From the IMG/VR virus record IMGVR_UViG_3300011114_000319, positions 1-20,211 of that record: a DNA stretch of 20,211 bases; one strand, written 5' to 3'. Of the stretch, positions 4,877 to 20,211 are shown piece after piece. Position 1 is the first letter of the stretch. Every line of letters starts with the position of its first letter. The notes beneath the pieces are model-generated. The model did not search any database and was not told where the DNA came from. It saw nothing but the letters and a program-made list of their open reading frames with translations. This DNA is from a virus. Both the position numbers and the translations under genes were made by a program.

Positions 4877-5785
4877 TTAGGCTCCGGGTGAACCGAAAAT
4901 ACCTAAAGGATCAGACACACCGAAGCTGTAACGCTCACGGGCTTTGTAACGAACGTTACCTGTGTCAAAGTCGCCATCCATGCTGTTAGACAAGGGTGAA
5001 CGAACAAAGTGTTTCAGGCCGTTAGGTACGTCTGTAGTCAAGAACCAAGCATTGGTGTCAGTCAAATAGTGGTTAACGCAGTAACCTTCAGAGATTGAAC
5101 CATTGTTCTTCAATGCATTGATATCATTGTCAGCTGTAGAAACGCGAAGTTCGGTTTCGAGCAAACGTGTAGCAACGAATTGCAGTGCTGGTGGAATGAC
5201 CAATTTCTTGGGCTTAGCGGCGATCAACAAGCCACGCTCGTCTGTCCAAGCAGCAATTTGAATAACAGCATTTTCCAACGATGTTTCATTCAAGTCAGCG
5301 GCAGTGGAAGGAGTGTTGCTGTTAGTACCACCTGATACCAGTGGGTGAGCAGTAGAGCAAAGCACCACGCCGTCGCCGTATGTTGGGCCACCAGCAAAGG
5401 CATTGTTCAACACATAAGCGGCTTTAACCTGCTTGGTGTAAGCCATACCACGGGCCAAAGCCTTGGTATAACGTGAAGACAAAGAGTCATACAAGTTATC
5501 TTCCACAGCTTCCTCTGTGATGGAGAAGCCCATCGCAATGGTTTCGTGGGTGTAACGTGCAGTCCATGCTTCCTGTGCATTGTCATAAGCGATGGCAGAA
5601 CCCTCGTTTTTGACTGGTGCTTGACCAAAGCCAGACAGTTTTGTCTCTTCTTCAAAAGAACGCTCAGAAGTTTCGGTTTCATAAATTTCTTTATGTTCCT
5701 CACCATACTTGGCGTACTCCAGACCAAACAAAGCGTTTAAGCCGGGAAGAAGTTCTTTAAGTAGTTGTGCGCGTGAAATTGCCAT
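4877..5785 (-). CDS. Major capsid protein, Mu gpT-like, HK97 fold
   Basis: This 302-residue protein builds the icosahedral head. It resembles the major head subunit gpT family of Mu-like phages: an N-terminal segment LLPGLNALFGLEYAKYGEEH, then SAIAYDNAQEAWTARYTHET, AMGFSITEEAVEDNLYD, and the characteristic GDGVVLCSTAHPLVSGGTNS loop near the middle. Later come KPKKLVIPPALQFVATRLLE and DVPNGLKHFVRSPLS. Its length fits the family. The start MAISRAQLLKE has a ribosome site (AAGGAG), and a strong terminator follows the stop. Scaffold and two other head genes lie directly upstream in the operon in the usual order. An alternative non-capsid role is unlikely. Confidence 0.92.
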   Translation of the reverse strand: MAISRAQLLKELLPGLNALFGLEYAKYGEEHKEIYETETSERSFEEETKLSGFGQAPVKNEGSAIAYDNAQEAWTARYTHETIAMGFSITEEAVEDNLYDSLSSRYTKALARGMAYTKQVKAAYVLNNAFAGGPTYGDGVVLCSTAHPLVSGGTNSNTPSTAADLNETSLENAVIQIAAWTDERGLLIAAKPKKLVIPPALQFVATRLLETELRVSTADNDINALKNNGSISEGYCVNHYLTDTNAWFLTTDVPNGLKHFVRSPLSNSMDGDFDTGNVRYKARERYSFGVSDPLGIFGSPGA

Positions 5786-13466: not shown

Positions 13467-13490
13467 GAGGGGCTTCGGCCCCTCTTTTTT
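13467..13490 (+). terminator. Hairpin terminator GAGGGGC-TTCG-GCCCCTC
   Basis: A 7-bp GC-rich perfect stem with a TTCG tetraloop is followed by six T residues, directly after the stop of the first rightward gene. It has all parts of a Rho-independent terminator. The loop and inner stem match the leftward terminator at 4174-4187. Confidence 0.9.
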
Positions 13491-14002: not shown

Positions 14003-14006
14003 CCAA

Positions 14007-14032
14007 GGGAGGCTTCGGCCTCCCTTTTTTTT
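14007..14032 (+). terminator. Strong terminator GGGAGGC-TTCG-GCCTCCC plus eight T
   Basis: A 7-bp stem with a TTCG loop is followed by eight T residues, immediately after the 68-residue gene. It isolates the following transcription unit, whose untranslated leader starts right behind it. Confidence 0.92.
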
Positions 14033-14825: not shown

Positions 14826-14838
14826 CTTAGCAACCCTG

Positions 14839-14874
14839 CCCTGCCAGATCGAAAGGTCTGGCAGGGTTTTTTTT
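14839..14874 (+). terminator. Strong terminator with GAAA tetraloop
   Basis: A 12-pair stem (CCCTGCCAGATC with GGTCTGGCAGGG, one T-G wobble) closes on a GAAA loop and is followed by eight T residues, 13 bases after the stop of the 201-residue gene. It is the strongest terminator in the window and seals the origin-like region from upstream transcription. Confidence 0.92.
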
Positions 14875-17224: not shown

Positions 17225-18133
17225 ATGAACTTTGAATTACAACAACCGAGCCAAGTGATCTCACTTGCAACATCTGCGCTTATTGTTAACGTGGATGTGA
17301 ATGTGTGGACTGCGACCAAGCAGGATCGTGCTATCTCTGACGAGGTTACATCCGCTAAGAATGCATCCTCTGAAGCTGGCAAGTTCACCAAGAACTTGCT
17401 CGCTAACTCGCCCGACCACAAAGCCCTCCTTAACTATCGGCAAACCGTCTATAACTGGCTTCAGCGTTGCACCTACGATTGGGCGGGAGCGATGCGCTTG
17501 TTGCCCATGATCAACCTTGAGAAGTTCAAGAAAGAATACGAGGGGCATGAGAAAGCCTTTGATGACTTGTTTAATAAGTTCATTGCGTCATACCCCACGA
17601 TGGTAAGCGATGCGGCATTCAAGCAAGGCGACATGTTTAATCGTTCAGAGTACCCTGAACCACAAGAATTGCGAAGCCGATTCAAGATCAAGTTGTTCAT
17701 AACGAAAGTCCCCGCGAATGACTTCAGGTCTAACATCAGCGAGGCTATCGCTGAAGACTTGATGCGCGGATACGAGCGACAAGTGGGAGAGATCATCGAT
17801 ACAGTCATGCAAGATGCAAGTGAGAGACTTGTACTTTTCGCTGAGCGCATTAGCAATGCATGCACAGAGAATACCGCCAACGAGGATGGCAAGGTCAAGC
17901 GCAAGAAGATTTACGACACAACCATCACACAAGCCAAGGAGTTGTGTGAGACCCTGAAGTCCTTTAACTTAACAAATAACAACGCATTGGAGGATGCTAG
18001 AGCTCGACTAGAGAACGCATTGGATGGCGTGACATGCGAGGAGTTGCGTGAGAGTTCGTATGCACGAAGCCAAGTGAAAGAGAGCGTGGATGATCTGTTG
18101 TCCAACTTCAAACCATTGAAAGCATTCTTATGA
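17225..18133 (+). CDS. DUF3150-like protein, first component of the MoxR/VWA cassette
   Basis: A 302-residue soluble protein. The N-terminus LIVNVDVNVWTATKQDRAIS follows the pattern of DUF3150 proteins (a strand with a conserved Trp, then a charged helix). Next come a helix-rich middle (LLNYRQTVYNWLQRCTYDWA, then MRLLPMINLEKFKKEYEG) and YPTMVSDAAFKQGDMFNRSE with YPEPQELRSRFKIKLFIT. The C-terminal third is coiled-coil-like (IAEDLMRGYERQVGEIIDTV onward). From memory, DUF3150 genes stand beside MoxR/CobS-type ATPases and CobT/VWA-type genes in mobile elements, and the same order appears here. The molecular role is unknown. The ribosome site is AGGGAG and the stop overlaps the next start. The family call needs a profile search. 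Confidence 0.6.
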   Translation: MNFELQQPSQVISLATSALIVNVDVNVWTATKQDRAISDEVTSAKNASSEAGKFTKNLLANSPDHKALLNYRQTVYNWLQRCTYDWAGAMRLLPMINLEKFKKEYEGHEKAFDDLFNKFIASYPTMVSDAAFKQGDMFNRSEYPEPQELRSRFKIKLFITKVPANDFRSNISEAIAEDLMRGYERQVGEIIDTVMQDASERLVLFAERISNACTENTANEDGKVKRKKIYDTTITQAKELCETLKSFNLTNNNALEDARARLENALDGVTCEELRESSYARSQVKESVDDLLSNFKPLKAFL

Positions 18134-18309
18134 CAGATTTAGAAATTGTATTGTTGATTGCTTTTGCAATCATGACAGTCATGTACTGGAGATCAGAGCG
18201 CAAGCGCATCTACATCTCTTGTGCATTGGTAGCAGTAGGTTTGAAAGAAGCCTACATCGAGGTCGATGAGGAAACAAAAACCTTTGAGATCAAAAAAGTA
18301 AGTCAGTAA
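18130..18309 (+). CDS. Single-pass mini membrane protein, 59 aa
   Basis: A 59-residue frame starts at an ATG sharing ATGA with the previous stop, so it is almost surely translated. MTDLEIVLLIAFAIMTVMYW is a hydrophobic N-terminal segment (residues 4-20). It is followed by a basic stretch RSERKRIY, giving an N-out, C-in orientation by the positive-inside rule. The rest (VAVGLKEAYIEVDEETKTFE, IKKVSQ) is a short soluble strand/helix domain. It lies between the DUF3150-like gene and the ATPase gene. It could tether the cassette proteins to the inner membrane; this is inference. A second mini membrane protein with a similar WR junction occurs at 19613. Confidence 0.75.
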   Translation: MTDLEIVLLIAFAIMTVMYWRSERKRIYISCALVAVGLKEAYIEVDEETKTFEIKKVSQ

Positions 18310-18337
18310 TCCCTGAAACATTAAATTGGAGAAAGCC

Positions 18338-19408
18338 ATGTCGAAAGTAAACTTTTCATTGACCACATCTATCGATGAGACCAAGCAACTCATCAAGTCT
18401 ATCGGTACAACAAACACAGTCATTGTTGTCTCTGAGCCTGGGGTTGGGAAATCAACCATCTTAGAAATGCTTAAAGCAGATATGGGTGAGGATGAGTACG
18501 ACTACATCTATGTCGATTGCCCTGTGAAAGACATGATGGATATCGCGGCATCGATACCAAATCATCAGAGCAAGTCTCTTGAATACTATGTCTCATCGTT
18601 GTTTAAGATGGGCAATGGCAAGAAGAAGGTGATCATGCTCGATGAGTTCATGAAGTCACCCAAGTTGATGCAGATCATTTATACCCGACTCATGTTGGAG
18701 CGTAGTGTGGGTGATTGGCAGTTACCAGAAGGTAGCTATGTGTTTGCAACAAGTAACAATGCAAGCGATGGTGTGGGCGATGGCATGTTGGCTCACGTTG
18801 GGAATCGTGTGTGCTTGGTCAGTATGCGTAAGCCAAACCATGATGAGTGGAATACATGGGCGAGTGCGAATGGCATTGCGCGACCCATTCGTGCGTGGGC
18901 GGCTATGAATACCAAGGCGTTCAAGTCTTACTTAGATCCCGATCAGCAAGACAACCCATATATCTTTAAACCATCATCGACTAACAAGTCCTTTGTGTCT
19001 CCTCGCTCATTGGCTAAGTGTTCTCCAATCGTCGAGAAGCGTAGCGAATTCTCAGAGAATGCATTAACTGTTGCATTGGCGGGTACTGCTGGCGAAGCAT
19101 TCGCTAAGTCTATCGCGGCATTCATCTCACTTGAGGGTCGCCTGACTAAATATGAGGACATTATCAAGAACCCCAAGACTATCAGCGTTCCTGACAATGT
19201 AAGCGCATTGGTCATGATGTTGTTCGAGGCAATCGACAAGTTAGATACTCAGGATACCCTGAACAAGTACATGGACTTTGTGAATCGTATTCCCCAAGAA
19301 GAAATCCAATCGATCTTTTTTACCATGATGATGCGAGCCAAGCCCAAGTTGGCGCGATACAACCAAGAGATCAACAAGTGGGCAACTGACAATCACCAAC
19401 TTCTGTGA
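18338..19408 (+). CDS. MoxR-type AAA+ ATPase (CobS-like), 356 aa
   Basis: An ATP-driven remodelling ATPase. Starting at the ATG with GGAG upstream (an in-frame TTG four codons earlier is less likely), it has Walker A EPGVGKST (residues 33-40), Walker B VIMLDEF (98-104), sensor 1 FATSNNA (136-142) and then DGMLAHVGNRV with the likely Arg finger R157. The motif ...LDEF with a TSNN sensor and a GNRV turn is typical of MoxR/CobS-like proteins. The C-terminal 150 residues are helical and lack a second known domain. Phage homologues are often labelled cobS although they have nothing to do with cobalamin. MoxR proteins work with VWA partners as chaperones; here the partner is the gene at 19702. Family firm, target unknown. 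Confidence 0.9.
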   Translation: MSKVNFSLTTSIDETKQLIKSIGTTNTVIVVSEPGVGKSTILEMLKADMGEDEYDYIYVDCPVKDMMDIAASIPNHQSKSLEYYVSSLFKMGNGKKKVIMLDEFMKSPKLMQIIYTRLMLERSVGDWQLPEGSYVFATSNNASDGVGDGMLAHVGNRVCLVSMRKPNHDEWNTWASANGIARPIRAWAAMNTKAFKSYLDPDQQDNPYIFKPSSTNKSFVSPRSLAKCSPIVEKRSEFSENALTVALAGTAGEAFAKSIAAFISLEGRLTKYEDIIKNPKTISVPDNVSALVMMLFEAIDKLDTQDTLNKYMDFVNRIPQEEIQSIFFTMMMRAKPKLARYNQEINKWATDNHQLL

Positions 19409-19419
19409 GGAGATATTAA

Positions 19420-19638
19420 ATGGCGTTGTATCGGATATTGGTAGATATATCAATGAGAGACCTACTCATTGAGGCAGATAGTGAGGAACATGCGATGGAG
19501 AGAATACGCAAAGAATATGTTTACCCACTACGCCAACACCCATTTGGGGGACACCCAAGCGCGTGGGGTATGCGGATAAGAGAGCCTTGGAAGAAACAAC
19601 TGGAGAAGAGAAATGCTAACCAAGTGGGAAAAGTTTGA
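19420..19638 (+). CDS. Small hypothetical protein, DpnD/PcfM-like start, 72 aa
   Basis: Starts MALYRILVDISMRDLLIEAD, then SEEHAMERIRKEYVYPLRQH, with a GAGGAG ribosome site 11 bases after the ATPase stop. The strand, strand, helix layout of its first 35 residues (RILVDIS, DLLIEADSEEHAMERIR) resembles the short DpnD/PcfM-type domain found in small phage and plasmid proteins; that link is weak. The remainder is basic with aromatic residues (GGHPSAWGMRIREPWKKQLE). Its last 26 bases overlap the start of a 29-residue membrane protein in another frame. The function is unknown; it sits inside the ATPase/VWA cassette and may be a part of it. Confidence 0.75.
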   Translation: MALYRILVDISMRDLLIEADSEEHAMERIRKEYVYPLRQHPFGGHPSAWGMRIREPWKKQLEKRNANQVGKV

Positions 19639-19702
19639 GCGAGTGCTACTGCTGTTGGCATTCATCGTTTTACTGTTAGACGTTTATTACTGGAGACCAT
19701 AA
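19613..19702 (+). CDS. Very small single-pass membrane protein, 29 aa
   Basis: A 29-residue frame with GGAGAAG at normal spacing overlaps the end of the 72-residue gene. It stops at a TAATG junction with the metallopeptidase/VWA gene, so it is read by ribosomes just before that gene. The sequence is MLTKWEKFERVLLLLAFIVL, then LLDVYYWRP: a charged start, one hydrophobic segment (residues 11-24) and an aromatic end. Coupling to both neighbours and a good ribosome site support expression. An alternative view is that it only serves to feed ribosomes to the next start. It may anchor or signal for the cassette; unproven. Confidence 0.6.
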   Translation: MLTKWEKFERVLLLLAFIVLLLDVYYWRP

Positions 19703-20211
19703 TGATTACTGAAGAGCAACGAATCAAGAAGGGGCATATCGCCCTGATGAAACACCCCGAGACTGCATTGTGGGGTGGCGTGATGATGATGGGCGCAACT
19801 GAGGTGGTGGATGAAGCGATCACCGCCTACACGGATGGCATCAACAAGAAGTATGGCAGAACATTCTTACAGACTATCTGCCCAACACAAGCCGAGGTCA
19901 ATGGACTCATCTTACATGAGAACTTGCACATTGGATTACGACATCATCTGCACGGAGCAGACATGTTCAAGGAGGATGGTGACAAAGCTAACAAGGCGGC
20001 TGACTATGTGGTCAATGACATGATCATGGAGATTAGCAAGAAGTATCCCGAGTTAGTTCAACTACCAAGAGGTGGATTATATGATCCACAGTATCACAAC
20101 ATGAGCATGCGTGAGATATACAAATTACTCAAGAGCAAGAAGGGTGGTGGCGGAGGTGGTGGTAAGCCTGACAAGGAAGGCGAGAAGGGTAGTGGGTCAG
20201 GGGGTGGTGCA
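19702..20211 (+). CDS. Putative metallopeptidase/VWA-type partner of MoxR (DUF2201-like), partial
   Basis: Starts at an ATG overlapping the previous TAA (TAATG) and stays open for 170 codons to the right edge, so the C-terminus is missing. Residues 72-76 are HENLH within LILHENLHIGLRHH, a zinc-metallopeptidase signature (HExxH). AADYVVNDMIM (99-109) follows, with a possible third ligand (Asp 101 or 106), as in DUF2201-type N-terminal domains. A Gly/Lys/Ser-rich linker begins near residue 148 (KKGGGGGGGKPDKEGE), the usual bridge to a C-terminal VWA domain that should lie beyond the window. Known relatives pair with MoxR ATPases. Peptidase activity is assumed from the motif; the enzyme could instead be a structural zinc protein. 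Confidence 0.85.
   Translation, partial: MITEEQRIKKGHIALMKHPETALWGGVMMMGATEVVDEAITAYTDGINKKYGRTFLQTICPTQAEVNGLILHENLHIGLRHHLHGADMFKEDGDKANKAADYVVNDMIMEISKKYPELVQLPRGGLYDPQYHNMSMREIYKLLKSKKGGGGGGGKPDKEGEKGSGSGGGA

Follow-up and report, generated by a model that had tools for sequence, protein, structure and literature searches.

What does a phage do with an ATPase of MoxR type encoded next to a metallopeptidase-like VWA protein? The question is raised by positions 17225-20211 of a 20,211-nucleotide stretch of DNA (IMG/VR record IMGVR_UViG_3300011114_000319; hereafter the window, meaning the whole stretch), a 20.2-kb fragment of an uncultured aquatic phage. Six co-directional open reading frames (ORFs) are present there on the (+) strand, with the overlaps described in a first-pass annotation made from the sequence alone, and the motifs listed in it (EPGVGKST, VIMLDEF, FATSNN, HENLH and a Gly-rich linker) were all found. 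Three of the frames, encoding a DUF3150-like protein, the ATPase and a DUF2201 zincin-VWA protein, form what we call the trio. The answer that we favour, with evenly balanced confidence, is that the trio makes up an ATP-driven MoxR/VWA remodelling machine with a zinc-peptidase domain, which would act in the early or middle phase on a host or replication target and not on the virion.

The relatives used for comparison are 62 loci obtained by scanning viral contigs (IMG/VR) with the ATPase as query. In the window, the zincin-VWA frame ends with the contig at residue 170 and comprises the HENLH zincin domain and the start of the Gly-rich linker; it matches DUF2201_N (E 3.5e-11), the sole DUF2201 domain visible there, and the VWA domain falls outside the window. 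The presence of a VWA domain behind the linker, set beforehand as a test, was borne out in the relatives, which include proteins that match the window fragment at up to ~100% identity where the two overlap (L002, 400 residues). In all 21 full-length homologues (about 400 residues), both DUF2201_N (putative metallopeptidase) and DUF2201 (VWA-like) score above cut-off (in L002, 86 and 72 bits against cut-offs of 23.2 and 26.4). In the aligned full-length proteins, H72, E73, H76, D101 and N105 (L002 numbering) are invariant, as is a complete metal ion-dependent adhesion site (MIDAS; D276-x-S278-x-S280, T339 and D363), and HExxH, D101, N105 and the MIDAS stay invariant when the copies from phage MinM2, plasmids, N4 (gp25) and XC38 are added. 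D101 is a candidate third metal ligand. The proteins end just after the VWA domain, with no variable effector domain behind it. The name given to the zincin-VWA protein in PHROG 1314 and in many RefSeq phage records is ‘HNH endonuclease’; because N4 gp25 (NC_008720) matches DUF2201_N at 3e-87, this label is, judged by domain content, a misleading and widely propagated annotation.

The ATPase of the window matches PHROG 1297 (E 6e-51). GxGK, the DE of Walker B and the sensor-1 N are invariant among 22 homologues, and GxGK, D102 and N140 remain so once plasmid and N4-like ATPases are added. The Pfam cut-offs of AAA_3 and AAA_5 are not reached (AAA_5, 14.5 against 22 bits), and nSTAND3 exceeds its cut-off through the P-loop only. 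For the AlphaFold model (mean pLDDT 80), the best fold in the PDB is NorQ of the NorQD complex (E 5e-6, TM 0.46/0.62); NorQ chains align with a root-mean-square deviation of 5.4-6.7 (TMt ~0.6), compared with 9-26 for most other AAA+ matches. Because the nearest fold in the PDB is NorQ and a VWA gene adjoins the ATPase gene in every related contig that extends far enough, we class the ATPase as MoxR-type, in line with the first-pass annotation, by fold and neighbourhood and not by Pfam. In sequence-profile searches of the PDB, the ATPase family gave weak P-loop matches only, and the zincin-VWA and DUF3150-like families gave no match.

The first gene gave no match in a direct Pfam search. In 15 of 22 homologues, DUF3150 (PF11348) was found at E<=1 (best 1.1e-4), which is below the curated cut-off (best score about 20 bits against 24.9 bits); the protein of a Cupriavidus plasmid that is named DUF3150 by NCBI likewise stays under it, at 22.1 bits. 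The family profile A2 finds this plasmid protein (E 4e-21) and the annotated DUF3150 protein of phage MinM2 (E 5e-24). The AlphaFold model of the 302-residue protein (pLDDT 75, pTM 0.48) is mostly helical with a small beta element; its best fold match in BFVD is a viral DUF3150 protein (E 1.7e-12, with a modest TM of 0.38), and a fold search against the PDB gave no significant match. ‘DUF3150-like’, as first suggested, is therefore a safe name on these profile and fold matches, and no Pfam membership is claimed. The phage and plasmid proteins had diverged too far for their alignment to serve in a genome scan, and viral scans with the third proteins of MinM2, Tunturi_3 and plasmids returned one or no further relatives.

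The three genes occur in the same order and on the same strand in the 62 contigs, at identities down to 46-53%, so that the predicted three-gene neighbourhood is collinear as far as sequence runs. The DUF3150-like gene lies upstream of the ATPase gene in all loci except L062, whose contig starts within the ATPase gene, and the HENLH gene lies downstream in every sufficiently long contig; gaps in the trio coincide with contig ends. Pairwise identities of the three proteins correlate (r = 0.87-0.91 over 18 loci, a value reached in 0 of 2000 permutations; r = 0.63-0.79 within the close set). Since common phage ancestry accounts for part of this correlation, it supports co-inheritance and not physical contact. 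The cassette is thus conserved beyond chance and probably functional. A scan of bacterial genomes with the ATPase gave one good match and one weak partial match. The good match (L113 1216-2355, 52% identical) is on a 7.6-kb contig of a metagenome-assembled genome of an uncultured actinobacterium; this contig is probably phage.

In four long contigs, the trio is on the strand of the DNA polymerase and superfamily 2 (SF2) helicase genes, opposite terL, portal and capsid, and is followed by two genes of ~300 residues with no assigned role, then by DNA polymerase and SF2 helicase. By terminase, portal and capsid, the kin of the window phage are the Pelagibacter phages HTVC023P/027P, DSL-LC04, MinM2 and the Roseobacter phages CRP-901/902. 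When kin were searched with the family profiles A1-A3, the trio was found in MinM2, and none of the three proteins was found in DSL-LC04, CRP-901, HTVC027P or 023Pt_psg01, all with homologous terminase, portal and capsid. Because these four have homologous head genes and no trio, gene content marks the trio as accessory and the heads of this kin as independent of it.

Two conserved genes of ~300-330 residues follow the VWA gene on its 3' side in most contigs (only one in L032, L038 and L040); a Pfam search of them gave no match, and they may belong to the cassette. In L052-L055, the gene directly after the VWA gene (ATGA-coupled) starts MITRKQLLK(E/Q)LLPGLN-LFGLKY, and the capsid N-terminus reads MAISRAQLLKELLPGLNALFGLEY. 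This peptide of ~25 residues, which differs little from the N-terminus of the phage's own major capsid protein, sits at the front of an unrelated protein of 335 residues (e.g., L054 10427-11434 on the + strand; compare window 4877-5785 on the - strand), and its DNA differs from that of the capsid gene at many synonymous positions. L108 matched over the same residues and probably has the peptide; the sister contigs L056 and L057 are without it. The capsids of trio-less phages carry the same N-terminal peptide, so the peptide is a capsid trait that the gene 3' of the VWA gene has borrowed, and no proof of a substrate.

Two tiny ORFs in the cassette are predicted to encode membrane proteins. Mini membrane protein 1 (59 residues) has BLAST homologues in 22 loci and a ratio of nonsynonymous to synonymous polymorphism (pN/pS) of 0.28 over 57 codons, indicating purifying selection. 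Of the 62 contigs, 34 contain the C-terminal motif of mini membrane protein 2, LLLD(L/V)(F/Y)xWR, with few exceptions immediately 5' of the VWA gene; the pN/pS of mini membrane protein 2 is 0.34. Shifted-frame controls for both ORFs are packed with stops. With pN/pS about 0.3, both are real genes by the measure of codon-level selection. The WR codons of the 29-residue gene (TGG AGA/AGG) overlap the Shine-Dalgarno sequence (TGGAGA) of the VWA gene; the idea that WRP is a mere by-product of this site was rejected, because selection is equally strong without the WRP codons (0.35). A membrane ORF is missing from the ATPase-VWA gap in 19 of 55 cassettes, 18 of which also have none in the first gap, and no membrane mini ORFs were found in MinM2, N4 or the plasmids examined. 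Because about one third of the cassettes, as well as MinM2, N4 and plasmids, are without them, anchoring at the membrane through two tiny proteins, which the first-pass annotation had proposed for the machine in general, does not hold as a general mechanism and looks clade-specific at most. The remaining small ORF, of 72 residues, was found only in the window, L006 and L062 and is the weakest of the six frames; its slot is filled by unrelated small ORFs in L002, L005, L035 and L036. The small ORFs in the short gaps flanking the ATPase gene differ between phages and are unrelated to each other, a pattern resembling a turnover hotspot.

From features read directly in the sequence, namely the domains with their intact motifs, the conserved order, the co-divergence, the genomic position and the pattern of presence and absence, we propose complex formation, a pulling mechanism, peptidase activity, a timing and a non-virion target for the trio. 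By analogy with NorQD, a hexameric ATPase ring would grip the MIDAS-bearing VWA domain and pull the linker joining the VWA and zincin domains, and the Gly-rich linker may act as a lever like the linker of NorD. The DUF3150-like protein could be a dedicated third subunit or substrate adaptor, in the place held by VMAP in ternary conflict systems, and the mini membrane proteins look like an addition peculiar to the clade, perhaps tethering or regulating the machine. Production would probably fall in the early or middle phase, together with the replication genes, and the target would be a host or replication-associated protein complex.

An alternative that we consider unlikely, although it has precedents, is a chaperone and peptidase for virion assembly, by which capsid or tail proteins would be remodelled or trimmed as they mature. 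Iyer et al. (2021) reported a MoxR/metallopeptidase-vWA pair in group 2.2 jumbo phages, proposed a role in virion assembly for it and cited an archaeal virus that requires a MoxR-vWA pair for its tail (PMC7824862); the capsid-like peptide on the gene after the VWA gene (L052-L055, with L108 matched over the same residues) and the virion proteins encoded near gp24/25 in roseophage RPP1 (PMC4193335) point the same way. The trio is, however, encoded among replication genes, and the peptide is missing in two sister contigs and present on capsids of trio-less phages. A virion role is also made less likely by the trio-less kin with homologous capsid, portal and terminase and by plasmids, which build no capsid yet carry the trio. 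What fits better than a virion role is a target that plasmids and phages share and that is required ahead of late gene expression. Somewhat more doubtful is a counter-defence or phage-exclusion module that would disable an immune complex of the host or a rival phage: the part types and gene order (third gene, MoxR, vWA) match VMAP ternary conflict systems (PMC7159879), the distribution of the trio within the phage group is accessory and variable small-ORF slots adjoin the cassette, but there is no variable effector domain behind the VWA domain, PADLOC gave no convincing match (weak P-loop matches only, none for the VWA protein), and the pair is core to all 25 N4-like phages compared, which is unusual for a defence-specific gene (PMC4193335). 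We think it improbable that the trio serves a metalloenzyme as a chaperone for metal insertion or for a cofactor, in the manner of NorQ/NorD or CobS/CobT. Among solved structures, the ATPase fold is nearest to NorQ, and the NorQ complex inserts iron (PMC13036017), but the VWA partner here has an invariant HExxH peptidase domain, which is not stated for NorD or CobT in the literature used, and next to the cassette we recognised no gene for a dedicated metalloenzyme.

Several points weigh against an early or middle machine that would act on the host or on replication. Its timing is argued from gene position and from N4, and phages without the trio could use a host substitute. The capsid-like N-terminal peptide on the neighbouring gene in four or five relatives and the RPP1 virion proteins near gp24/25 (PMC4193335) both hint at a link to assembly. 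A long shot would be a membrane-tethered AAA+ protease of a new layout, in which the MoxR ring, the zincin-VWA protein and a DUF3150-like adaptor are recruited to the inner membrane by the 29- and 59-residue proteins and, early in infection, dismantle a host membrane or replication complex; in one sublineage, the gene after the VWA gene would then use the capsid N-terminal peptide as a recognition tag.

Features of the cassette (positions in the window unless a contig is named)
Feature	Position	Strand	Evidence
DUF3150-like protein, 302 aa	17225..18133	+	family profile, fold match, sub-cut-off Pfam
Mini membrane protein 1, 59 aa, one N-terminal transmembrane segment	18130..18309	+	BLAST homologues, pN/pS
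MoxR-type AAA+ ATPase, 356 aa, PHROG 1297	18338..19408	+	PHROG, motifs, fold
Variable-slot small protein, 72 aa, no assigned role	19420..19638	+	presence in few contigs
Mini membrane protein 2, 29 aa	19613..19702	+	C-terminal motif, pN/pS
DUF2201 zincin-VWA protein, 170 of ~400 aa	19702..20211	+	DUF2201_N; cut at contig end
Two genes after the VWA gene	L007 10368-12276, L063 10537-12445, L054 10427-12417	+	

The DUF3150-like gene and the 59-residue gene are joined via an ATGA overlap, the 29-residue ORF shares 26 nt with the preceding 72-residue ORF and is coupled to the zincin-VWA gene by TAATG. The ATPase gene starts with ATG at 18338, preceded by GGAGAAAG; the mechanical ORF begins at TTG 18326. 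Where the + strand module begins, there are three strong terminator-like hairpins followed by T runs (window 13467-13484, 14005-14026 and 14838-14867, +). Searches for tRNAs and Rfam families gave none, and promoter-like sites were not more frequent than in shuffled sequences. In the contig behind L063 (L083-L086, 70.7 kb), the ORFs of one end reappear at the other, always 63,877 bases apart; one complete genome of about 63.9 kb, carrying the trio once, is probably contained in it.

The cassette is not unprecedented, as the machine type is already known in phages and plasmids; what is distinctive here, from gene content, is a trio placed among DNA-replication genes and accompanied by tiny conserved membrane proteins. 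Relatives in mobile elements, which the first-pass annotation had mentioned, are present on plasmids and in phage MinM2. Synechococcus phage MinM2 (OQ594354), with identical loci in the Planktothrix phages Pag-Yong1 and Pra-JY27, carries the whole trio, under the annotations MoxR family ATPase, DUF3150 and VWA-like and with matches to profiles A1-A3, and shares related terminase, portal and capsid with the window phage, but its order is MoxR-DUF3150-VWA, three soluble proteins of ~112 residues lie between, there are no membrane mini ORFs, and its trio is 18-22% identical to the present one. On plasmids of Burkholderiales and Rhodovastum (e.g., NZ_CP062805), the trio is co-directional, with HExxH and MIDAS intact and a PRTRC gene or conjugation genes near some copies; the order is MoxR-DUF3150-VWA in 3 of 4 records examined, and in Simplicispira the ATPase is apart from the other two.

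NorQ-NorD shares the ATPase fold and the VWA partner, but it has no zincin and no DUF3150-like protein and is dedicated to nitric oxide reductase; in the cryo-EM work on NorQD, a finger of the VWA domain enters the ATPase pore and the ring twists and stretches the NorD linker (PMC13036017). The VMAP ternary conflict systems have the same three-gene MoxR-vWA logic and order (PMC7159879), but VMAP itself and their variable vWA effector domains were not found in the cassette, whose third gene is DUF3150-like. The pair of group 2.2 jumbo phages has the same domains, with no third subunit mentioned (PMC7824862). In N4-like phages (Schitoviridae), gp24 and gp25 are an ATPase and a DUF2201 zincin-VWA protein, adjacent and outside the late virion module as here; a DUF3150-like protein was not found in N4 and XC38. 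gp24/gp25 are middle genes, core to the 25 N4-like phages compared, with function not known (PMC4193335), and no functional tests of them were found in openly accessible literature. The first-pass statement that the function in phages is undescribed is only partly right: the pair had been reported in N4-like (PMC4193335) and jumbo phages, for the latter with a proposed role in virion assembly (PMC7824862). The present clade shows the ATPase/zincin-VWA pair of N4-like phages with a third subunit, uncoupled from virion needs by trio-less sisters and shared with plasmids. The trio-less sister phages and the plasmid copies shift the likely role away from virion assembly, and the role can be tested in phage N4.

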